DNA from: a virus
Strand: one strand, 5' to 3'
Virus record (IMG/VR): IMGVR_UViG_3300031269_000015
Span: 1 to 62,122 of that record
Length of the DNA stretch: 62,122 bases
The notes below the pieces were generated by a model. It ran no database searches. It saw only the letters and a list, made by a program, of their open reading frames with translations, and was not told the DNA's origin. The position numbers were made by a program, and so were the translations under genes. Numbering within the stretch: the stretch's first letter is position 1; each line of letters begins with the position of its first letter. Below are positions 5,706 through 37,186 of this stretch, in pieces.

Positions 5706-6263
5706 ATGGAAGATAAAATTATAGAAGCCCTTGGACTGATGGACGCCATGGATGACGAACAATGGACTGCGGACGGTGCGCCCAAGGTAGACTTTGTTGC
5801 CTCCTTGGGTGATTTTGAAAATCTGAAACGAGCTGACATCATCAACGCTGCACCAAAATTCTCACGAGTTAACTTCGACGTTTCCAAAGACGTTGATGAA
5901 GAACAACCTCAGTTAGATGAGGAAGTTGAAGAAAACTCCATGGGTTACGATCACCCAGATATCGTTAAAGCTCAAGAAGAGTTTGATGAAATCGTTTCTG
6001 CAGAAGCAAATTTCAAAGCAGAAAAGAAAAAACGCAGTGATGCACTAGCTGAGGTTACGGCTCGTTTGATGCATCAAAAAATCGATCCTCAAGCCAATCA
6101 ACGCGAGATCATGCGGACCATCGCATCTTCTAATGCTGCTCGTGCCGGTAGAGTCGCTAACTTCCAAAAAAATCGATCCCTATTGCTTGATCAACATCCA
6201 GTGTCTCCGTTGGATCAATCAAAATCAGGTGAGAAGAAAGTTCGTCCGTTGATGAGAAAGTAA
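5706..6263 (+). CDS. Unknown acidic head-region protein
   Basis: 185 aa with no domain I recognise. The first half is acidic (DVDEEQPQLDEEVEEN); the second half is helical and basic (FKAEKKKRSDAL; NAARAGRVANFQKNR). Position directly after the capsid gene and before the connector genes suggests a head-completion or head-internal protein, but that is context only. Start ATG 5706 follows AAAGGTCG. Confidence 0.6.
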   Translation: MEDKIIEALGLMDAMDDEQWTADGAPKVDFVASLGDFENLKRADIINAAPKFSRVNFDVSKDVDEEQPQLDEEVEENSMGYDHPDIVKAQEEFDEIVSAEANFKAEKKKRSDALAEVTARLMHQKIDPQANQREIMRTIASSNAARAGRVANFQKNRSLLLDQHPVSPLDQSKSGEKKVRPLMRK

Positions 6264-6268
6264 TTACC

Positions 6269-6346
6269 ATGAGCACTCTCGGTCAAAAACGCATGGCAGC
6301 GGCATTGTATCATGCTAAAAAGAACAGACTTTCTAAAAATACTTAA
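6269..6346 (+). CDS. Very small protein (25 aa)
   Basis: ATG 6269 to TAA 6344, basic (MSTLGQKRMAAALYHAKKNR). It begins 5 bases after the previous stop and has no convincing ribosome site. It overlaps the decayed gene that follows. Weak support. Confidence 0.25.
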   Translation: MSTLGQKRMAAALYHAKKNRLSKNT

Positions 6347-6481
6347 CAGAGACCTGTTCTCCATAGATGCTCTATTCGCAGGCGGCACTGAAGGTATGAC
6401 CCGTCTGACCTATCCACGATGTTCCAAGATAGCGCAGGCACCACGCCTGTAACGATATCGGGGCACCGATACAATCAATGA
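6312..6481 (+). pseudogene. Frameshifted remnant of a phage structural gene
   Basis: ATG 6312 opens a frame reading MLKRTDFLKILNRDLFSIDA, then LFAGGTEG. At 6395 the next frame takes over with YDPSDLSTMFQDSAGTTPVT, a motif I know as one continuous block in many phage virion proteins (normally LFA.GE.G.WYDPSDLSTMFQDSAGTTPVT-like). The switch needs a lost or gained base near 6393. The second frame stops at 6479, well short of the usual length. A third frame then stays open to about 6560 (GTDTINEEMKLIGVSLINAD). This looks like a gene broken by small indels, not an overlap. Confidence 0.6.
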
Positions 6482-6590
6482 AGAAATGAAATTGATCGGT
6501 GTTTCCCTGATTAACGCTGACACGATCCAAAGCCCGTCACGGGTGTTCTTGTAGAGATACAGCAAGAAGTTTAAGGGAATAGGTGCAATA

Positions 6591-7100
6591 ATGACAATCA
6601 TCGTAGAAGATGCAACTGGACTATCGACTGCTGAGAGTTATCTATCATATTCTGATTATGTTACTTATTGGTCTGATCGTGGAGTCGCAGTTTCCGAGAC
6701 AGAAGCTCAGATTGAAGTTCAGTTACGTCTTACTACGGAGTACATCGATCTTCGCTGGGGTGATAAAGCTCCTGGACTTACGATCTCTGAAACTCAAGCT
6801 CTGTCTTATCCAACGGACTATTTCATAGTTGATCCTGTAGCACTACCTGTTCAGCTCAAGAGAGCTATGGCAGAGTATCTTCGTTATTCTCTTACGAACA
6901 CCTTGTTCATAAACAACACAGCGATCAATGGTCCAGGTATAATCTCTCTTACAGAGAAACTGGGACCGATTGAGACTAGAACTGTTTGGTCTGGATCAGG
7001 AAATGGCTCTGTTGGGCGTAAATATCCAATAGTCCCCAAAGCTGATAGTCTTATGCGTCAAATAACACTGGGAAGTTCTAATGGAGGTGTTATCCGCTAA
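6591..7100 (+). CDS. Head-tail connector, DnaT-like
   Basis: 169 aa. The N-terminus (IIVEDATGLSTAESYLSY, then RLTTEYIDLRWGDKAPG) matches phage proteins annotated as 'DnaT-like ssDNA-binding', which by position act as head-tail adaptor 1. C-terminal residues (PIVPKADSLMRQI) fit the family. Start ATG 6591 after AAGGGAATAGG. Its stop overlaps the next start (TAATG at 7098-7102). Confidence 0.75.
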   Translation: MTIIVEDATGLSTAESYLSYSDYVTYWSDRGVAVSETEAQIEVQLRLTTEYIDLRWGDKAPGLTISETQALSYPTDYFIVDPVALPVQLKRAMAEYLRYSLTNTLFINNTAINGPGIISLTEKLGPIETRTVWSGSGNGSVGRKYPIVPKADSLMRQITLGSSNGGVIR

Positions 7101-7492
7101 TGTTTGATTATTATAAACTCGCAGAAACTTCGGAACGTTTGATCACTGATCGTGGACGTAGCATAACATTTATTCAGAATCCCGAGACACCTGTAGATTC
7201 GACTAAACCTTGGAAAGCCCAAACAGGAGCAGACGTCGTATTTACGACTAAAGCTGTCTTTCTTCCTCCTAGATCAGTTACTCAATTCGGTCTTTCCGCC
7301 CTTGGGCAAGGTACTGAATTTGAAGATTTGATTGCATCATCTGAGTATTTTGCTATCTTCTTTCCTGGAACAATTGATTGCCGTAATTTCATTAAAGTAC
7401 AAGATGGGTTAGAAACATTTGGTATAAAAGCTATTCAGATTCTACAACCCGGAGACGTTCAATTACTTGGACTTGTTGGGATGCGTAGATGA
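7100..7492 (+). CDS. Head closure / neck protein
   Basis: 130 aa, predicted mostly beta-strand. It lies second in the connector run and overlaps both neighbours by a few bases, as head-closure proteins do. Segments such as GRSITFIQNPETP and a C-terminal VQLLGLVGMRR fit an Hc1-like fold, but the assignment rests mainly on gene order. Confidence 0.6.
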   Translation: MFDYYKLAETSERLITDRGRSITFIQNPETPVDSTKPWKAQTGADVVFTTKAVFLPPRSVTQFGLSALGQGTEFEDLIASSEYFAIFFPGTIDCRNFIKVQDGLETFGIKAIQILQPGDVQLLGLVGMRR

Positions 7493-28155: not shown

Positions 28156-28211
28156 GGGTTGCCTCGGATATGGGAATAAGTTAGGCTTAATTATGCCCAA
28201 GCAGAGGCAAC
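28156..28211 (+). repeat. Inverted repeat flanking a promoter-like motif
   Basis: GGTTGCCTC near 28157-28165 and GAGGCAACC near 28203-28211 are perfect 9-base complements separated by about 38 bases. The -35-like TTGCCT lies in the left arm. It could be an operator or an RNA hairpin in the leader of the 28241 gene. Confidence 0.45.
28159..28187 (+). promoter_or_regulatory. Promoter-like motif
   Basis: TTGCCT at 28159-28164, 17-base spacer, TAGGCT at 28182-28187; weaker match to the recurring pattern, before the 28241 gene. Confidence 0.4.
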
Positions 28212-28240
28212 CTTTGATATCAGATAAACGGAGAAATGAT

Positions 28241-28957
28241 ATGAACATCACCTTTAACGATACAGAATACGCTGAAGAAGACTTGGCTCAACTGTCCATT
28301 GAAGACCTTTTGATACTGCGCAATGAAGTGGCCGTCAGCCTCAGCGTCGCAGAAGTCAAAGGTTTCAAAGATCAAGCCGCTGGCGCTGCTCAGACTTGGA
28401 AAGCGCTCCTGCGTCACAACAAGGCTTCTGAAGTACCGAAAGCCAAAGCTGTCAAAGTAAAAGCTGAACCCAAAGAGCGTGGTCTGGCCAAATCTGCTGA
28501 AGCGAAGACGGTCAAACGTCCGAACCAGAAAATGTTTTCAACCATCACCAAAACTGGCGAACACGATGGTACTCAGGGTCGGACACATCGCTGGCCGAAC
28601 TACACTGATGGCATGACCATTGTCGACGTCATTGAAAAAGAAGGCACTGAGCCATGGGACGTCTACAACTGGACTGGTCAAGGTATCATGACCATCACCG
28701 AACCAACCGAAGAAGAGTTCGTTGCTCGCAAAGCGGCTTGGTACACGAAGCATGGTTTGACTGATCCTGAATCTGCAAAAGCTGAAGCGGCTGCCGAACG
28801 AGCAAAAGCGAAAATTGAGCGTGACGAAGCTGCTGCTGTCAAGAAAAAAGAACGCGAAGATGCGAAACTTGCGAAAATCGCTGAGCGTGAAGCTGCTGTC
28901 AAAGCCAAGGCTGACGCGAAAGCCGAAAAAGAAGCTGCGAAAGCTGCTGCTGAATAA
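28241..28957 (+). CDS. Unknown protein with long charged C-terminal helix
   Basis: 238 aa from ATG 28241 (site CGGAGAAAT). The N-terminus (YAEEDLAQLSIEDLLILRNE) is helical. A compact middle part (TQGRTHRWPNYTDGMTIVD) may be a small domain. The last 80 residues are a Lys/Ala/Glu-rich single helix (KERDEA-like and KAKADAKAEKEAAKAAAE). It overlaps the base-hypermodification gene by TAATG and may be co-expressed with it. Frame also opens at 28193. Confidence 0.7.
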   Translation: MNITFNDTEYAEEDLAQLSIEDLLILRNEVAVSLSVAEVKGFKDQAAGAAQTWKALLRHNKASEVPKAKAVKVKAEPKERGLAKSAEAKTVKRPNQKMFSTITKTGEHDGTQGRTHRWPNYTDGMTIVDVIEKEGTEPWDVYNWTGQGIMTITEPTEEEFVARKAAWYTKHGLTDPESAKAEAAAERAKAKIERDEAAAVKKKEREDAKLAKIAEREAAVKAKADAKAEKEAAKAAAE

Positions 28958-29847
28958 TGTCTGAACTTCAGACACAAGCGTTCTTCAGCTTTGTTGAGGA
29001 ACGCGAACAGATCCGCCTGCGAAAGCTGGCGGATTTGCCATTTCCCTGGACCGAAGACCAGATCCTGAGGGATTACAAATTCACCAATGTCCACAGACAC
29101 CATGACCGAACCAGTAATGAACTGAGAGAGCGGTTCTACACTCCACATTTCAACGCCGACCCTGTTACTATTTTAATGAATGCTGCGACATTCCGTTATT
29201 TTGGAACCTATGAGTTCGCTTCTGTTATTGGGTGGACTGAGTCTCAACACATGACCTCTGAACACTGGGATATGGTTAAAGAACTCGCTAGAGACAGACT
29301 AGCGAACAAACAGCGAGTTTTCACTGGTGCCTATGTTATCACGAATCAAGGTATCTCTGCTCCAAAACAAGAAGTGGTAGTTGATTATTTTCTCAAATCT
29401 CTTCAAAAGAAAGCCTCTTTTCTCACTGCAATAGCTAAAGAAACTCAAAGCTGGGAAAAAGTTGCTACTGAGATGCGAAAGATCAACGGTTTTGGCGGCT
29501 CTGGGTTCATGACAAAAGAGATCTTGTTAGATACTACTTACACTGATTTCTGGTCTGATCCTGATGGACTGTTCTCTTTCCCCACTGACTGGAATGATTG
29601 GACACCTATCGGTCCAGGAGCCAGACGTGGTGCGGCTCGTGCTCTGGGAGATGAAACTGCAAAACCACTAAAAGAAGATAAAGCGTTCTCTGTTATCTGG
29701 CAGCTATGGTTTGAGCGTGATAAGTTCATCCCTGATATAGAGATGTGCCTTCATGATGTGCAGTTCCAACTTTGTGAGTTTGACAAGTATGAGCGTGTTC
29801 GTTTGGGTCAAGGACGACCACGGTCTCGATACAAAATACCTAAATAA
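28957..29847 (+). CDS. Putative DNA base hypermodification protein (alpha-glutamyl/putrescinyl thymine pyrophosphorylase-like)
   Basis: 296 aa. The opening FFSFVEEREQIRLRKLADLP, then DYKFTNVHRHHDRTS, matches the family described as 5-hmdU DNA kinase helical domain / alpha-glutamyl-putrescinyl thymine pyrophosphorylase. These proteins act on 5-hydroxymethyluracil in DNA during thymine hypermodification. A glycosylase-like helix-hairpin (INGFGGSGFMTKEILLD) supports this. I see no P-loop, so a kinase activity in this chain is doubtful. It sits in a cluster with a glycosyltransferase and a pyrimidine hydroxymethylase-like gene. Confidence 0.72.
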   Translation: MSELQTQAFFSFVEEREQIRLRKLADLPFPWTEDQILRDYKFTNVHRHHDRTSNELRERFYTPHFNADPVTILMNAATFRYFGTYEFASVIGWTESQHMTSEHWDMVKELARDRLANKQRVFTGAYVITNQGISAPKQEVVVDYFLKSLQKKASFLTAIAKETQSWEKVATEMRKINGFGGSGFMTKEILLDTTYTDFWSDPDGLFSFPTDWNDWTPIGPGARRGAARALGDETAKPLKEDKAFSVIWQLWFERDKFIPDIEMCLHDVQFQLCEFDKYERVRLGQGRPRSRYKIPK

Positions 29848-29853
29848 TCTAAA

Positions 29854-29890
29854 AGAGGGCGACAACTAGCACTTGTCTTTTGCGCCCTCT
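29854..29890 (+). terminator. Nested hairpin between modification genes
   Basis: AGAGGGCG (29854-29861) pairs with CGCCCTCT (29883-29890). Inside, GACAA (29861-29865) can pair with TTGTC (29873-29877), followed by TTTT. A TATTAT at 29892-29897 may be the -10 of a promoter for the glycosyltransferase, but no well-spaced -35 is visible. Confidence 0.6.
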
Positions 29891-29932
29891 GCTATTATGG
29901 TGGTTAAACATAACCTGTTGGAGACAACCCAA

Positions 29933-31204
29933 ATGAAAATATTAGTCGCACTTCATAAGTGCATGGACCTCGGTGGTATTGTTGATCACACCGAACAATT
30001 GATCGGCGGTCTTAAAGAACTAGGTCACACAGTTCAACTTAAAGAACTCGTATGGTCATTCCAAGCATCAGACCAACGCAAAACTGCAGACTGGTCTTTC
30101 GGACCAAGTAACATTCCTCATCACCAAGGCAAAGGCTGGAACTTTGCAAAAACAAATCGCATTCCTTATCGCGGCAGAGCTCACCTTAGCGGTGCCAAGC
30201 AAATTCTGGGCGGGTACGATCTCATTATCTGGACAATGCCTGTTCCAAGCAAAAATCAAGACAATCTAGGTAACAATGACTGGCCTGAATTGTATGATCT
30301 CCCATCCACTACCAAACAAATTGCGTTTGTTCACGATGGTAACGTAGTGAAAGGAGCCGGACATCTTCTGGCTATCCAAGATAAACTTTCTGGGCTTGCT
30401 TGTGTTCACCCTTGTGCTCTCAATGGAGCGGTTTTTGCAGACGTCCCACGAGCATTGGTCTTAAACCCACAGAAAAATCCTGTTCGTACTTATGCTAGAT
30501 GGGACTGGAAGTCTCGCGGTTTCGTAAACATGCAAACTTTCAAAGCGTGGAAACATGCTCATGAACTAGTCGAAGCTATCAGGTATATGCCTAGCAAAAA
30601 GTCCGATGAGATGCGTGAAATAGCCGGCTTAGGCATTGAATATCGCTATATGACCAGTGAAGAAAAGTGCAAAGATGCTTATTTCCATGAAGATGGGACA
30701 AAGTTTTGGGATGCTGCTATAGAAAACGGCATGACTCATCATGACTATTGGGACAAAACTGAAGTTGACAATTATCTTGTTGAATCTCGAGTGCTTGTTG
30801 ATCCATCATGGTCAAACAACTATTCTAAAGTCGGAGGTCATTTTAACCGAGTGGCTGTTGATGCTATGATGCGGGGTTGTGTGGTCGTGGCTCGTCAAAA
30901 AGGTATGGGTTCTGAATTGTTCAAAGCTGGTGAGCATTACATAGCTATTCCAGAAAATGCCGATTCTCAAGAGTATGCTGAAATCGTTCTGGAAGCCGGA
31001 AACCAATCTATCAAAACAGCCCAATGTATGATCGATGCAAATCAAGAACTTTTGCCATTGTTTGAACGGAAAACGGTGGCTCAACGTGTGATCGATCTTG
31101 CAAATGGGAACTGTGATGTAGAAGCAGTCCAGGGAACTGCGACACAAGCAATGAAAGCAAAAGTTGAAGATCAACTGTTTAATCACTTTGGAGTTTTACT
31201 ATAA
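29933..31204 (+). CDS. Glycosyltransferase (GT-B type)
   Basis: 423 aa from ATG 29933 (KILVALHKCMDLGGIVDHTE). The N-terminal GGIVDHTEQLIGGLKELGHT is the acceptor-side Rossmann start of GT4-like enzymes. The C-terminal half has PSWSNNYSKVGGHFNRVAVD and MMRGCVVVARQKGMGSEL, equivalent to the nucleotide-sugar binding region. Placed between the base-hypermodification gene and the hydroxymethylase-like gene, it may glycosylate modified DNA bases, though a surface-polysaccharide role cannot be excluded. In-frame extension to 29873 overlaps a hairpin and is not favoured. Confidence 0.75.
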   Translation: MKILVALHKCMDLGGIVDHTEQLIGGLKELGHTVQLKELVWSFQASDQRKTADWSFGPSNIPHHQGKGWNFAKTNRIPYRGRAHLSGAKQILGGYDLIIWTMPVPSKNQDNLGNNDWPELYDLPSTTKQIAFVHDGNVVKGAGHLLAIQDKLSGLACVHPCALNGAVFADVPRALVLNPQKNPVRTYARWDWKSRGFVNMQTFKAWKHAHELVEAIRYMPSKKSDEMREIAGLGIEYRYMTSEEKCKDAYFHEDGTKFWDAAIENGMTHHDYWDKTEVDNYLVESRVLVDPSWSNNYSKVGGHFNRVAVDAMMRGCVVVARQKGMGSELFKAGEHYIAIPENADSQEYAEIVLEAGNQSIKTAQCMIDANQELLPLFERKTVAQRVIDLANGNCDVEAVQGTATQAMKAKVEDQLFNHFGVLL

Positions 31205-32202
31205 TGCACATTATCAAAGCAAGAAACGTAGAAGACGCTCTTCTGTTGGGTGTTGATATGATCAATGAAACTGGTGTTCAGCGAGACAGCCGTAATGGTC
31301 CAGTGAAGCTAATGCCTCAACCAGTAACAACTGTCTACGAACATCCAAGAGAAAGAGTTATGTTCCTTCCTGAACGTGACTGCAATCCGTTCTTCCACTT
31401 CATGGAATGCCTCTGGATGATGGCAGGTCGTCGTGATGTTGAATGGATTAGTCGCTTCAATAGTGGTATGGTTAACTACACTGACGATGGAGTCAATTTC
31501 CATGGAGCCTATGGCTATCGCTGGCGAAACCACTTCCCAGATGGTGAATTCGTGATTGATCAGCTCGCTACTATAGCAGCCACTCTCAAGTCAAACCCTG
31601 ACGACCGTCGTACTGTTCTGCAAATGTGGGACGCGACATCTGATCTTGGTTTCGAAGGTAAGGACTTTCCATGCAACCTAATCATCACGTTTCGTATCAA
31701 CGTAGCTGGTCATCTCGATATGACTGTGTTCAATCGCAGCAACGATATGATCTGGGGAGCCTACGGAGCCAACGCTGTTCATATGTCATTCATGCAAGAA
31801 GTTATGGCTTCTTGGATTGGTGTCCCTGTTGGGTGTTACTGGCAGATCAGCACAAATTTCCACGCCTATCTCGAAACACTGAAAAAAGTAGAGCCTCTGT
31901 TGTCTCAGTCTGCTGGGTTCACTGATTACGAGCTTGGTAACGTGGAACCTTTCAACATTGTTAACTCTTCAATCGATACATGGTTTAGCGAACTGTCTAT
32001 GTTCATGGAAGATGGCGCTAATGTGATGGGTTACACAGATCCGTTTTTCAAACGTGTTGCTGTACCGATGATGCTTTCTTGGGAAAAATGGAAAGATAAA
32101 GGTAATCCTGATCGTGTTGAAATGGCAATCGCTTCAGCAGAGAATATTGTCGCAACTGACTGGCAGAAGGCTTGTATTGAATGGTTGGAGCGTAGAGCGT
32201 GA
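31204..32202 (+). CDS. Thymidylate synthase-family pyrimidine hydroxymethylase
   Basis: 332 aa. Family landmarks: DDRRTVLQMWDATSDLGF, the nucleophile Cys in DFPCNLIITFRI, and FNRSNDMIWGAYGANAVHMS. ThyA enzymes normally have Cys-His at the active site; here it is Cys-Asn, as often seen in dCMP/dUMP hydroxymethylases. An Asn is kept in GANAVHMS near the base-recognition site, which would favour dUMP, though that alignment is shifted by one residue. With the neighbouring hypermodification gene, 5-hydroxymethyl-dUMP formation is my preferred reading; plain thymidylate synthase is the alternative. Confidence 0.75.
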   Translation: MHIIKARNVEDALLLGVDMINETGVQRDSRNGPVKLMPQPVTTVYEHPRERVMFLPERDCNPFFHFMECLWMMAGRRDVEWISRFNSGMVNYTDDGVNFHGAYGYRWRNHFPDGEFVIDQLATIAATLKSNPDDRRTVLQMWDATSDLGFEGKDFPCNLIITFRINVAGHLDMTVFNRSNDMIWGAYGANAVHMSFMQEVMASWIGVPVGCYWQISTNFHAYLETLKKVEPLLSQSAGFTDYELGNVEPFNIVNSSIDTWFSELSMFMEDGANVMGYTDPFFKRVAVPMMLSWEKWKDKGNPDRVEMAIASAENIVATDWQKACIEWLERRA

Positions 32203-32747
32203 TTTATGAAATAGATGGAATTTTAAGTAAAATAAAATTCACTCGGGAGGCATCGGCAGTCAGTCGGTGTCATACCATTGCTCACCATGGAGAATATCCG
32301 GTAGGTCTCCATACTTTTAATATGTTAGCTACTTTAAGACTAATGTGGCCTGTTGCTCCTCTTGTCTTAGTTTGGGCTATACTAGAGCACGATATCCCAG
32401 AGAGACTTACTGGAGATATTCCTTCTCCACCTAAAGATCATGGAGTTGTAGGTAAAGATCATCTTAATAATTTAGAAATAATGATCAACACTGCTGTTTT
32501 CGGTTGTCACAATTTATCTTCACTAAACCCAGAAGAAACAACATGGTTTAAGGGATTAGATATTCTAGAACTTTATATGTGGTGTAAAGATCAGGAAATG
32601 CTCGGTAACAAAAATATACGAGTAATGATGGCTAGAATTGATAAGTTTTTTAAATTCAATTCTCATAAAGTTGCCAAAGAAATTGTCGACGTATACCACT
32701 TGTGTTATCATGACACTTGGGATATGTGTCACGACCTAGGAGATTAA
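32199..32747 (+). CDS. HD-domain nucleotide phosphohydrolase (YfbR-like)
   Basis: 182 aa from GTG 32199, overlapping the preceding stop. It has the HD pattern: RCHTIAHHGEYPVGLHTFNM, then AILEHDIPERLTGDIPSPPK, as in 5'-deoxynucleotidases. Phage versions remove unwanted dNMPs; here it could deplete dTMP or dCMP so that modified nucleotides are used. Confidence 0.8.
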   Translation: MIYEIDGILSKIKFTREASAVSRCHTIAHHGEYPVGLHTFNMLATLRLMWPVAPLVLVWAILEHDIPERLTGDIPSPPKDHGVVGKDHLNNLEIMINTAVFGCHNLSSLNPEETTWFKGLDILELYMWCKDQEMLGNKNIRVMMARIDKFFKFNSHKVAKEIVDVYHLCYHDTWDMCHDLGD

Positions 32748-33330: not shown

Positions 33331-33728
33331 TGATCATTAAAGGATGGGCATCAGTGTTTGGTGAGATTGATATTGAAAGTGAAGTAATAGTTAAAGGGTG
33401 TTTTAAGAAAGACTTAAAGAAATTAACATTCGCTAGACCAATGCTTCTTGAACACAACACAGATAAAGTTATTGGAAGATGGGATATCATTAAAGAAAAA
33501 GAATATGGTCTATGGTGCGAAGGAACAGTGTTCGATGAAACCACACAGTTTTGGATTGATAAATGTGGAATATCTGGCCTTTCAGTACTTTTAAATGAAG
33601 TTAAAAAGAAAAGAATTAACGGTCTATGGTATCACGTAAAAGGAGAGATAGAGGAAATATCTGTGTGTTGTACCCCTATGAATAGAACAGCAAGAATTGT
33701 GGAAGTCATCAATGGTAAAGCAGACTAA
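33330..33728 (+). CDS. Prohead protease (S78-like)
   Basis: 132 aa. GWASVFGEIDIESEVIVKGC, LLEHNTDKVIGRWD (candidate catalytic His), GISGLSVLL (candidate Ser) and EISVCCTPMN follow the HK97-type prohead protease pattern. The enzyme normally cuts scaffold and capsid during maturation. It lies between DUF3310 and DNA polymerase, 29 kb from the capsid genes, which is unusual. Start ATG overlaps the previous stop by one base. Confidence 0.75.
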   Translation: MIIKGWASVFGEIDIESEVIVKGCFKKDLKKLTFARPMLLEHNTDKVIGRWDIIKEKEYGLWCEGTVFDETTQFWIDKCGISGLSVLLNEVKKKRINGLWYHVKGEIEEISVCCTPMNRTARIVEVINGKAD

Positions 33729-35793
33729 ACAGCAAGAAGCTAAAGCTAGGAACAGCGGAGAGTCCCCGTTGCAAATGTCGATGTTCATGCCCAAAGCAGA
33801 ATGGAGACCTCCCTCTATTTCTGACCTTCCTTCTTGGGCTGGTGCAAAAAGGATAGCTATTGATGCTGAAACAAGAGATCCATCAATCAGTGCTGGACTG
33901 GGAACCGGACAAATGCGAGACGGCTATACCGTTGGATGGGCTTTTGCCATTGATGGAGGACCTAAACACTATTTACCTTTTCGACACGAAGGAGGTGATA
34001 ACCTGGACGAAACAGAAGTCCTTCGATACCTTAGAGATAACATCAAAAATTACCGAGGGGAATTCGTTGGGGCAAATCTTGCCTATGATGTCGACTACGG
34101 ATACAACGATGGATTTGAATGGCATAGAGATGCTAAATTCAGAGATATACAAATCGCCGATCCCCTTATCAATGAACTTGAATGGTCCTACTCTCTCACT
34201 AACATCGGTAAGCGTCACGGAATTGAAGCCAAAGATGAGACGCTTCTTATTGAAGCAGCAAAAGCACATGGACTGGATGCAAAGAAAGGTCTTTGGCGGC
34301 TACCAGCTCGTTTCGTCGGAGCTTATGGTGAACAAGACGTCACCTCTCCACTTGATATCCTACGAATGCAAGAAGAGAAGATTGAGGCGGCGGGATTGCG
34401 TGAGATATGGGACCTTGAAACAGACGTTCTCCCCGTACTCGTAAGAATGCGACGTCGTGGTGTGCGGATTGATTTTGAAAAACTAGAGTCTATTGAAAAA
34501 TGGGCCTTAGACGAAGAGAAAAAAGCGTTAGACCTTGTGAAACGTGAGACAGGCGTCTCTATTGGGTTGGACAACATCTGGAAACCGAACCTCATAGCTC
34601 CTGCTCTTGAAGATATAGGTATGCGACTCAATAAAACTACGACTGGAGCACCACAGATTGATAAAGCTCTGCTCGGAGGTTCAGACCATCCTGTCCCTAA
34701 CGCTATTCTTCATGCACGTAAAGTAAATAAGATCAGGACAACTTTCTCTGCGTCAATCCATAAATATGCTGTCAAAGGTAAAATACATTGTTCTTTCAAA
34801 CAGATTGCAGCAGAAACAGAAAGCGGTGTTCAAAAAGGTGTTCGCTACGGTAGACTATCAGCCATTGATCCTAACTTGCAACAACAACCAAGTCCTGATC
34901 GAGACCCTGTAATCGCCGGTGAATGGAGGAAGATCTTCATACCAGAGGAAGGGGCAATCTGGGGCTGCAACGACTACTCTCAACAAGAGCCTAGGTGGAC
35001 GACACATTTCGCAGCGCTCATGGATTTCCCAAAGGCAAGAGATGCCGCCAAGCGTTATCGTGAAGACCCAAGTACAGACAATCATGAAATGATGACTCGT
35101 ATAGTTAATGGTGACAGCATTGTCGATAAGTGGATGTCGCAAAGCCCAAAGCAATTCAAACTAGAGCGAGGATTCTCTAAGGCTATCTACCTTGGGTTAT
35201 GCTACGGAGAAGGTGGAGCTAAACTCTGCGTGGACATCGGCAAACCTACTCGTTGGGCACATATCTCAGGATGGGGTAAAAAACGCCGCATTGAGTACCA
35301 TGACAGCAAAGAAGATGCGATGTCAGCCCGAATGGATATGGGAACAGGTTACTATAAAGAGATGGCTGGTGAAGAGGGTCAAGAGATACTGGATAAGTTC
35401 GACAGAGAAGCACCTTTCGTTGGAGCCTTGGCGAAAGCTGCGTCAGCAAGGGCTGAAGCTAAAGGATTTGTCAAGACAATATTTAATAGACACCTTCATT
35501 TTGAACAACGAGATGATGGTTCTTACGATTACACCCACAAAGCCCTGAACAGAGTTATCCAAGGTTCTTCTGCCGATCAAACTAAACTTGCCTTGGTAGA
35601 GATTGATAAAACTGACGCCTATCTACAACTACAGGTCCACGATGAGACTGATGGTAGTTACGGATCAGTTGCAGAAGCTGTTGCTGTCGGAGACATAATG
35701 AGAGACTGCGTTCTAAAGCGTTGTCGTCCACTTGTGCCGTTCAAAGTAGACTGTGAAGTTGGGCCTTCGTGGGGAGAAATTAAGAGTGTCTGA
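33712..35793 (+). CDS. polA: DNA polymerase, family A
   Basis: 693 aa with a 3'-5' exonuclease domain (Exo I: RIAIDAETRDP; Exo II around FVGANLAYDVDYGY) and a polymerase domain. Motif A is CNDYSQQEPRWTT, motif B is FSKAIYLGLCYGEGG, motif C is LQVHDETDG. No 5'-3' exonuclease domain. In motif B the residue aligned with E. coli Phe762 is Leu, a type linked in the literature to slower, more accurate polymerases. Frame opens at TTG 33697; ATG 33712 is preferred and overlaps the protease gene by 17 bases. Confidence 0.93.
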   Translation: MVKQTKQQEAKARNSGESPLQMSMFMPKAEWRPPSISDLPSWAGAKRIAIDAETRDPSISAGLGTGQMRDGYTVGWAFAIDGGPKHYLPFRHEGGDNLDETEVLRYLRDNIKNYRGEFVGANLAYDVDYGYNDGFEWHRDAKFRDIQIADPLINELEWSYSLTNIGKRHGIEAKDETLLIEAAKAHGLDAKKGLWRLPARFVGAYGEQDVTSPLDILRMQEEKIEAAGLREIWDLETDVLPVLVRMRRRGVRIDFEKLESIEKWALDEEKKALDLVKRETGVSIGLDNIWKPNLIAPALEDIGMRLNKTTTGAPQIDKALLGGSDHPVPNAILHARKVNKIRTTFSASIHKYAVKGKIHCSFKQIAAETESGVQKGVRYGRLSAIDPNLQQQPSPDRDPVIAGEWRKIFIPEEGAIWGCNDYSQQEPRWTTHFAALMDFPKARDAAKRYREDPSTDNHEMMTRIVNGDSIVDKWMSQSPKQFKLERGFSKAIYLGLCYGEGGAKLCVDIGKPTRWAHISGWGKKRRIEYHDSKEDAMSARMDMGTGYYKEMAGEEGQEILDKFDREAPFVGALAKAASARAEAKGFVKTIFNRHLHFEQRDDGSYDYTHKALNRVIQGSSADQTKLALVEIDKTDAYLQLQVHDETDGSYGSVAEAVAVGDIMRDCVLKRCRPLVPFKVDCEVGPSWGEIKSV

Positions 35794-36193
35794 TGTATGT
35801 AGTGTAAAGGGATGTAATTTCAAAGGAACTCTCAAAGCTGAAATGTGTGGTAAGCATAGAACACATAGCGACAGAAAAAGGTTTAACATGAATTCTCAAC
35901 TTCAGAAACAGGTCCTCGGTTGGGCCGAAGGACAATTCGGAGTAAATCCTGAATTGAAAATCGCAATCCGTGGTAACAAAGAGATGGCTGAACTTGTTTC
36001 AACTATTTCCAACGGAATGGGAAAAAAGTCTATCGGCGAGGAATGTGCTGATGTAGCTTTTTTCCTAATTCAGATTTGCGAGAAAAACGGATTTGACCTA
36101 ATGAAAGAGGTTGAAGCTAAACTCGTAATAAATCGCAAACGAGAATGGGGTATCGCCTCTGATGGTTCCCACCAACATATCGAAGGAACATAA
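35786..36193 (+). CDS. MazG-like nucleotide pyrophosphohydrolase with N-terminal zinc-finger-like segment
   Basis: 135 aa from GTG 35786, preceded by GGGGAGAAA. The first 25 residues carry CSVKGCNFKG and EMCGKHR, a possible zinc ribbon. The rest is MazG/DUF550-like: EMAELVSTISNGMG, then GEECADVAFFLIQICEKNGF with the conserved E..D helix pattern. Such enzymes hydrolyse NTPs or aberrant dNTPs. If ATG 35888 were the start the finger would be lost; the ribosome site favours the longer form. Confidence 0.72.
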   Translation: MSDVCSVKGCNFKGTLKAEMCGKHRTHSDRKRFNMNSQLQKQVLGWAEGQFGVNPELKIAIRGNKEMAELVSTISNGMGKKSIGEECADVAFFLIQICEKNGFDLMKEVEAKLVINRKREWGIASDGSHQHIEGT

Positions 36194-36194
36194 C

Positions 36195-36734
36195 TTGAAA
36201 CACTGTATGATAGACTTAGAAACATTTGGTACCTCAGCGGGTTGTGTCATTCGCTCAATCGGCGCTGTTGCTTTTGATCCTAGAACTCCTCGTTTGGGCG
36301 CAGAGTTCTACAAGAATATTACGGAAGAAGATCAAATTGCATGTGGAGCTTTCAAAGATCCATCCACTATCAAATGGTGGGATTCGCAAGGCGATTCTGC
36401 TAAAGAAATTTTGGAACCAAACCAGATGGATCTAAAAACTGTTGTCAATGGATTCAACAATTTTTGGAAAGAAAATAAGTTAAAATTCGCTTGGTCTCAA
36501 GGATCTAACTTTGATAGTGTCTTATGGGAAGCAACTTGTAAGTTAGTCGGCGTTAGACCACCTTGGCAGTTCTACAATACCCGAGACACTCGAACTGTCT
36601 ACGACATGGCTGGTCTTAACACAAAGACCATTCCTCGCAAAGGAATCTACCATTATGCTTTGGATGACTGCAAACATCAAGTTCGATGTGTTTACAAATC
36701 TTACATGATGCGCGATGGAGTAACTGAACGATGA
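36195..36734 (+). CDS. DnaQ-fold 3'-5' exonuclease (Rv2179c-like)
   Basis: 179 aa. Exo I motif MIDLETFGTSAG; SQGSNFDSVLWE is Exo II-like; YHYALDDCKHQVRCVY is Exo III with its Asp. It resembles the Rv2179c/DUF5051 exoribonuclease family. I use TTG 36195, which follows AAGGA at good spacing; ATG 36207 is the alternative. Confidence 0.75.
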   Translation: MKHCMIDLETFGTSAGCVIRSIGAVAFDPRTPRLGAEFYKNITEEDQIACGAFKDPSTIKWWDSQGDSAKEILEPNQMDLKTVVNGFNNFWKENKLKFAWSQGSNFDSVLWEATCKLVGVRPPWQFYNTRDTRTVYDMAGLNTKTIPRKGIYHYALDDCKHQVRCVYKSYMMRDGVTER

Positions 36735-37186
36735 ATGATGATAAAATGTTTATGAAACACGCAGTTCATGCAAGCAAATTCAGTCCTGATCCTTCCACGA
36801 AAGTAGGTTCAGTGGTTGTTCTTGGGGGCGCTGTGTTCTCCGTAGGCTTCAACCAATTTCCTAGTGGAGTACTAGAAAGTGATGAAAGACTGAACGATCG
36901 TACTCAAAAATACCCAAGAGTAATACATGCAGAAGCAAACGCTCTCGTCGAAGGGGCAAGATTGATGCATCGAGAACGACCACTTCTTGGGTTTGAATGG
37001 GCCACTCTCTACACCACCGAATTTCCTTGCTGTTCCTGCTGTGGGCTGATTATTCAACATGGTATTAAGAGAGTTGTGTCCCAAGATTTAAGTAGTGATT
37101 ACGCCGAAAGATGGGCAGAACAGATTGAAATCTCTAAGTCTATGTTTAGTGAATCTGGCGTAGAACTAGTGGTAATTCCCCGATAA
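36731..37186 (+). CDS. dCMP deaminase-like enzyme
   Basis: 151 aa. The zinc deaminase motif is clear: VIHAEANAL (His and catalytic Glu) and TTEFPCCSCCGLIIQHGI (Cys pair). N-terminal FSPDPSTKVGSVVV is typical for phage dCMP deaminases, which supply dUMP. It would feed the hydroxymethylase/thymidylate synthase-like enzyme at 31204. ATGA-type overlap with the exonuclease gene. Confidence 0.85.
   Translation: MNDDKMFMKHAVHASKFSPDPSTKVGSVVVLGGAVFSVGFNQFPSGVLESDERLNDRTQKYPRVIHAEANALVEGARLMHRERPLLGFEWATLYTTEFPCCSCCGLIIQHGIKRVVSQDLSSDYAERWAEQIEISKSMFSESGVELVVIPR

Follow-up and report, generated by a model that had tools for sequence, protein, structure and literature searches.

Introduction

DNA hypermodification based on 5-hydroxymethyl-deoxyuridine (hmdU) is known from the phages M6, ViI and PhiW-14. 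In the published order of events hmdU is incorporated into DNA, then phosphorylated by the 5hmdU DNA kinase and finally derivatised (PMC6449724). Sugars on 5-substituted uracils in DNA, of the kind we propose here, occur in base J of kinetoplastids, where JGT adds glucose to hmdU already formed in DNA (PMC6449724), and in phage SP-15, where a dihydroxypentyl side chain bears the glucose (PMC5977210). As of 2019 there was no report of glucosylated 5hmdU in phages (PMC6449724). Here, we analyse a 62,122-base virus record of IMG/VR from an uncultured phage (IMGVR_UViG_3300031269_000015; the whole stretch is termed the window), in which the gene for HMUDK_hel, the helical partner of the 5-hmdU DNA kinase in M6-type phages, lies beside a glycosyltransferase gene. 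The preliminary description of this DNA had pointed to three consecutive genes, for a base-hypermodification family protein, a GT-B glycosyltransferase and a thymidylate synthase-family enzyme with Cys-Asn instead of Cys-His, and had considered a sugar-bearing thymine built on hmdU a plausible product. The positions and gene calls hold, and the sugar-bearing thymine stands as the best reading, strengthened by related loci and with a chemistry that we infer.

The nearest characterised relatives of the cluster are found in M6/YuA/MP1412 and PaMx11 (Mesyanzhinovviridae), which share with the window the gene order, HMUDK_hel, an HD protein, PolA, dCMP deaminase and an orthologous hydroxymethylase. 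These phages, however, have a P-loop 5-hmdU DNA kinase, the amino-acid:DNA transferase ADDT and tailoring enzymes (a radical S-adenosylmethionine (SAM) and a pyridoxal phosphate (PLP) enzyme, or a flavin adenine dinucleotide (FAD) lyase and an acetyltransferase), whereas none of these is found in the window, which has a GT-B glycosyltransferase instead. Pelagiphage clusters combine a thymidylate synthase-family enzyme with aG/PT-PPlase1 and sometimes a beta-glucosyl-HMC-alpha-glucosyltransferase (PMC9599517). They resemble the window in pairing HMUDK_hel (aGPT-PPlase1) with a thymidylate synthase-family enzyme and, in some, in having a glycosyltransferase and a deoxynucleotidase. Their glycosyltransferase, named as the T6 enzyme, is a TAGT (PF20691), a family with a GT-A fold (PMC13216743), whereas that of the window is of the GT-B type.

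A glycosyltransferase gene in the place of the hmdU DNA kinase gene

The three genes in question are all located on the + strand and tightly packed:

28957 to 29847, + strand: HMUDK_hel of the aGPT-PPlase1 type, 296 amino acids (PF18723, 124 bits against a cut-off of 25, E 9e-36, residues 7-283 on profile positions 5-276 of 281; phrog_2396, 3e-45)
29933 to 31204, + strand: GT-B glycosyltransferase, proposed DNA 5-hmdU glycosyltransferase, 423 amino acids (PF00534, 32.5 bits against a cut-off of 26.4, E 7e-8)
31204 to 32202, + strand: thymidylate synthase-family enzyme, proposed dUMP hydroxymethylase, 332 amino acids (PF00303, 1e-22; phrog_5131, 1e-125)

The base-hypermodification protein of the preliminary description is thus HMUDK_hel, here beside a glycosyltransferase. 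We consider it rather likely that the cluster makes O-glycosylated hmdU in phage DNA with the involvement of HMUDK_hel, and the phage DNA would then probably carry a sugar-bearing thymine. This reading draws on four things seen in the sequences: the identities of the genes, the lack of a recognisable kinase or amino acid transferase, the conserved association of the genes and the repeated exchange of the partner of HMUDK_hel.

In PaMx11, MP1412, Sonora, Pam3 and Rhizobium phage TM26 the HMUDK_hel gene is preceded by the P-loop kinase gene, whose product scores above the PF18748 cut-off in MP1412, Sonora and Pam3, weakly in PaMx11, and is recognised by a local model in TM26. ADDT is present in all five clusters (PF18724 in three, a local model in the others). 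Neither the kinase (PF18748) nor ADDT (PF18724) was found in the window and 15 related records, with MP1412 and Sonora as positive controls, and the two families were also not found in whole-record searches of 45 further records without a local kinase, many of which are fragments. Moreover, the window contains no open reading frame for a P-loop kinase, its Walker A matches being RecD, the terminase and a chance-looking one in a 138-amino-acid frame at 7489. Permissive searches of the window with local hidden Markov models (HMMs) for the kinase, ADDT, radical SAM enzyme, PLP enzyme, FAD lyase and acetyltransferase gave no E-value below 0.2. HMUDK_hel as its own kinase was rejected, since it matches no kinase family. 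The preliminary description had instead remarked on the lack of an obvious hmdUMP kinase; none is annotated in the clusters of the relatives examined, in what was no exhaustive search, but the telling absence is that of the 5-hmdU DNA kinase and ADDT, both present in the nearest characterised relatives. Since these two defining enzymes were searched for and not found, the cluster lies outside the amino-acid-derived M6 pathway.

A profile scan of IMG/VR together with one match in a bacterial genome yielded 52 loci with a relative of the glycosyltransferase. HMUDK_hel is present in 49 of them and a kinase in none; two of the remaining three are cut by a contig end. The order recD, ribonucleotide reductase, the gene at 28193, HMUDK_hel, glycosyltransferase, thymidylate synthase-family enzyme, HD protein and polA recurs, to the extent that the contigs cover it, in 24 IMG/VR loci with 49-100% identity of the glycosyltransferase, and the arrangement is therefore not due to chance. 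Among 50,697 phage records no relative of the glycosyltransferase was found at E 1e-5. The 84,980 species genomes searched hold a single one, itself accompanied by HMUDK_hel and the thymidylate synthase-family enzyme. Some of the glycosyltransferase relatives have an FkbM-type methyltransferase in their locus, at times between HMUDK_hel and the glycosyltransferase.

HMUDK_hel exchanges its partners

We then considered the partners of HMUDK_hel more widely. Our survey and scans gave 112 non-redundant HMUDK_hel genes after clustering at 85% identity, and a partner was counted if it lies within 1.6 kb. By this count the partner is a GT-B glycosyltransferase in 34 cases, a TAGT in 30 (two of which also have a protein of about 345 amino acids), a kinase in 23, a methyltransferase in seven and the 345-amino-acid protein alone in five, with 13 genes having none of these. 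A kinase and a glycosyltransferase never occur in one locus. All of the transferase genes counted (200 of 200) are on the HMUDK_hel strand. In a maximum-likelihood tree of HMUDK_hel, built with a quick method and SH-aLRT support, the partner labels are strongly clustered, and yet well-supported branches force at least four changes for the kinase, at least five for the GT-B enzyme and at least seven for TAGT. The TAGT, which is unrelated to the GT-B enzyme, holds the same role beside HMUDK_hel in other phages. The sampling is biased, since the first set was limited to the top 80 relatives of the PaMx11 protein and the later scans were seeded with glycosyltransferases. Little weight can therefore be placed on the proportions; what counts as the result is the mutual exclusion together with the swaps. 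An iterated local kinase model also gave matches in L076, L079, L096 and L106 that do not abut HMUDK_hel; the two that were tested have no PF18748 match, and the 1.6-kb count leaves out L079, L096 and L106.

Across 52 HMUDK_hel relatives with kinase, GT-B, TAGT or methyltransferase partners 19 positions are invariant, among them R16, R47, D50, R80, K137, D192, D211, E274, K277 and R280 (numbered as in the window). They are common to all partner types, and the presumed site of HMUDK_hel is therefore kept whichever transferase accompanies it.

Structure predictions and active sites

The AlphaFold2 model of HMUDK_hel has a predicted local distance difference test (pLDDT) score of 94.4. Foldseek returned no significant match to known structures. 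A second structural comparison recovered queuosine-salvage DUF2419 proteins and helix-hairpin-helix (HhH) DNA glycosylases from Z 9.7 (5.0 A) down to Z 5, including MjOgg (Z 9.5 over 184 residues, root mean square deviation 4.1 A) and Mag1 (Z 9.4), with other folds first appearing at Z 3.6. This is suggestive, though not proof, of a predicted fold akin to that of base-flipping HhH DNA glycosylases. No convincing relative of HMUDK_hel was found in the PDB by single sequence and none by profile search, and NCBIfam has no family that covers HMUDK_hel or the glycosyltransferase.

For the glycosyltransferase the ATG at 29933, immediately preceded by GGAG, was preferred, and an earlier TTG start at 29873 was dropped. 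Its model (pLDDT 88.8) shows the full two-domain GT-B fold, in agreement with the assignment made before. The best structural match is T4 alpha-glucosyltransferase (AGT) in complex with hydroxymethyl-U DNA (Z 24.4, 339 residues), and AGT-DNA structures make up the top four matches (Z 24.4 to 23.5). The two enzymes share the GT-B fold at an identity of 10-12%, and the glycosyltransferase has no Pfam match to the T4 AGT family up to E 1; the fold is what suggests that it may work like AGT. The TAGT model (PF20691) has no match in the whole window up to E 1. As read by eye from an alignment, the second acidic position of the EX7E motif is kept (D310; E in one relative), while the first Glu is apparently replaced by an invariant GxH. 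PDB searches revealed no convincing relative by single sequence and only general GT4 similarity by profile.

Over its full length the enzyme encoded at 31204 shares 52% identity with the dUMP hydroxymethylase of M6/YuA/MP1412. An alignment of 13 relatives shows no variation at P156-C157-N158, which contains the catalytic Cys, or at N190, the dUMP-selecting Asn. At the matching sites solved thymidylate synthases have PCH and Asn and CMP hydroxymethylase has ACT and Asp, whereas the window enzyme has PCN and Asn, with N158 replacing the His next to the Cys, which bears out the Cys-Asn noted previously. The enzyme of PhiW-14, a phage for which hydroxymethyl-dUMP synthesis is established (PMC5977210), has PCN, and that of the Ackermannviridae phage LIMEstone1 has VCN; Cys-Asn therefore goes with dUMP hydroxymethylases. 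The retained N190 argues for dUMP rather than dCMP as the substrate. Homology and motif together suggest that the enzyme is a dUMP hydroxymethylase.

A proposed pathway and its alternatives

In the scheme that we propose, which covers the substrates, the sugar, the presentation of the base and the order of the steps, the dCMP deaminase would supply dUMP, which the enzyme encoded at 31204 would convert to hydroxymethyl-dUMP. Host kinases would turn this into the triphosphate, and the phage PolA would put hydroxymethyl-dUTP into DNA at replication. After replication the GT-B enzyme would take a sugar from a nucleotide sugar of the host and attach it to the hydroxymethyl group, with HMUDK_hel binding the DNA and presenting the flipped-out hmdU to it. 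HMUDK_hel would play the same role beside the P-loop kinase of M6-type phages. The hmdU of base J is made in DNA by TET/JBP oxidation, whereas that of the window would be made as a nucleotide. More tentatively, HMUDK_hel may be a general reader of hmdU into which a P-loop kinase, a GT-B enzyme, a TAGT or a methyltransferase can be plugged, the lineage of the window making O-glycosyl-hmdU by the HMUDK_hel and GT-B pair; this wider proposal is possible rather than likely.

Several observations weigh against glycosylation with the help of HMUDK_hel. For a helical protein, an HhH match with a Z of at most 9.7 is modest, and the Foldseek comparison was not significant. GT-B enzymes with other acceptors, such as TarM, are about one Z unit from the T4 AGT match. 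One locus, L216, has a glycosyltransferase relative (6001-7359) without HMUDK_hel or a thymidylate synthase-family enzyme. No fusion of HMUDK_hel with a transferase, which would prove the partnership, was found. Finally, PhiW-14 (L169), whose thymine is hypermodified, has ADDT and HMUDK_hel and yet no PF18748 match; failing this model is therefore not strict proof that a kinase is absent, and the hmdU kinase of PhiW-14 may be divergent.

The glycosyltransferase might also glycosylate hmdU in DNA alone, HMUDK_hel having a separate task; it might, for example, act together with a host or phage kinase that escaped recognition, and the DNA would then carry two modifications. T4 AGT, the best structural match, works on its natural substrate, 5-hydroxymethylcytosine in DNA, without an HMUDK_hel or any other partner, and some relatives have genes between HMUDK_hel and the glycosyltransferase. 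HMUDK_hel is, however, kept in 49 of the 52 glycosyltransferase loci without any kinase, and its invariant positions do not differ between the types of partner. We regard this explanation as unlikely. Another one, which we consider distinctly improbable, is that the glycosyltransferase is a passenger with a target other than DNA, for example a small molecule or the envelope of the host, and that the DNA contains plain hmdU or dT. Its close fold matches do include enzymes for lipids, teichoic acid and small thiols, and its sequence resembles those of solved GT4 enzymes only weakly and in a general way. Against this, several HMUDK_hel lineages show the association, with the glycosyltransferase before or after HMUDK_hel, the unrelated TAGT appears in the same role, and the lone relative from the species genomes also has HMUDK_hel and the thymidylate synthase-family enzyme. 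There is very little to be said for a sugar on a longer side chain, such as an amino-type group, first built on hmdU, since even though a glycosylated long-chain thymine exists in SP-15 (PMC5977210) and HMUDK_hel is elsewhere part of a phosphorylation route, no kinase, ADDT, radical SAM, PLP or FAD-lyase gene was found in the window.

Should glycosylation by the HMUDK_hel and GT-B pair be true, phages would have a route to a base J-like thymine that begins with the nucleotide, and what has been named a part of a kinase would in fact be a reusable module that presents bases. The modification could then be predicted from the neighbouring transferase, enzymes for writing sugars onto thymine would be newly available, and the solitary TAGT genes of phages, with a role that is still open (PMC13216743), would gain a testable function. 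It would also bear on the escape from restriction enzymes and from hmdU-excising DNA glycosylases. We found no phage report of a sugar-bearing thymine base as proposed here; nor did the literature, in a partial coverage that may have missed an earlier mention of HMUDK_hel with a glycosyltransferase, contain a description of the GT-B variant, the exclusion of the kinase or the repeated exchange.

Neighbouring genes

The window encodes a terminase, portal, major head, tape measure and tail proteins, and the layout of its replication region is like that of Mesyanzhinovviridae siphophages, for example MP1412 and PaMx11. The cluster is flanked by ribonucleotide reductase (26263) and PolA (33697), and the genes between them are all on the + strand, with several overlaps of a few bases; the stop of the gene at 28193 overlaps the start of that at 28957. 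The neighbouring genes are:

28193 to 28957, + strand: Lys/Ala-rich protein, directly 5' of HMUDK_hel in the whole GT-B lineage, role not assigned
32199 to 32747, + strand: HD-domain protein, possible 5'-deoxynucleotidase adjusting the deoxynucleoside monophosphate pool (phrog_6047, 2e-31)
from 32749, + strand: DUF3310-type protein
from 33330, + strand: short open reading frame
33697 to 35793, + strand: PolA-type DNA polymerase, which would incorporate hmdUTP (phrog_17, 5e-89)
35753 to 36193, + strand: weakly MazG-like protein, possible nucleotide pool enzyme (phrog_9147, 2e-13; Pfam MazG-like, 0.037)
36731 to 37186, + strand: dCMP deaminase, proposed source of dUMP (phrog_174, 3e-34)

A local HMM finds relatives of the protein encoded at 28193 in the glycosyltransferase loci, and weak ones in MP1412 (6e-8, a DUF3489 protein) and Sonora (8e-6). 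The dCMP deaminase further on had been recognised before. So had the HD nucleotidase that follows the hydroxymethylase; the HD protein is there, in the same position as in relatives, but its likeness to the 5'-deoxynucleotidase YfbR is weak (3.5e-4 in Pfam, under the cut-off). PolA resembles the aminoadenine polymerase DpoZ (E 1e-73, under the cut-off) and the HD protein is weakly like a dATPase. A Z-genome (aminoadenine) reading was rejected, as the window has no homologue of PurZ (PF00709).

Other arrangements around HMUDK_hel

FkbM-type methyltransferases are found beside the GT-B gene in many relatives (L064:5850-6545, L194:5327-6004, L191:12053-12763), though none was found in the window; they may serve further decoration of the sugar, perhaps its methylation. 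In 23 loci without a kinase a SAM-dependent methyltransferase (PF13489) lies directly 5' of HMUDK_hel and the thymidylate synthase-family enzyme (for example L083:4150-4992, L087:4162-5001, L094 and L105), a pairing of these two that resembles the one reported for pelagiphages, and methylated hmdU is a possible product. Elsewhere, HMUDK_hel is followed by the protein of about 345 amino acids, which has no family match and looks glycosyltransferase-like by eye (L123:5900-6940, L129:5825-7703). Near it are a cytidylyltransferase-cupin protein (L129) and a putative radical SAM protein, and loci of this type perhaps provide a phage-made nucleotide sugar. L127:7692-9050 encodes a glycosyltransferase-like domain fused to a sulfotransferase (PF17784), 3' of HMUDK_hel and without a kinase. 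Finally, two loci contain a tandem pair of HMUDK_hel genes (L128:4968-6700, L130:4938-7703).

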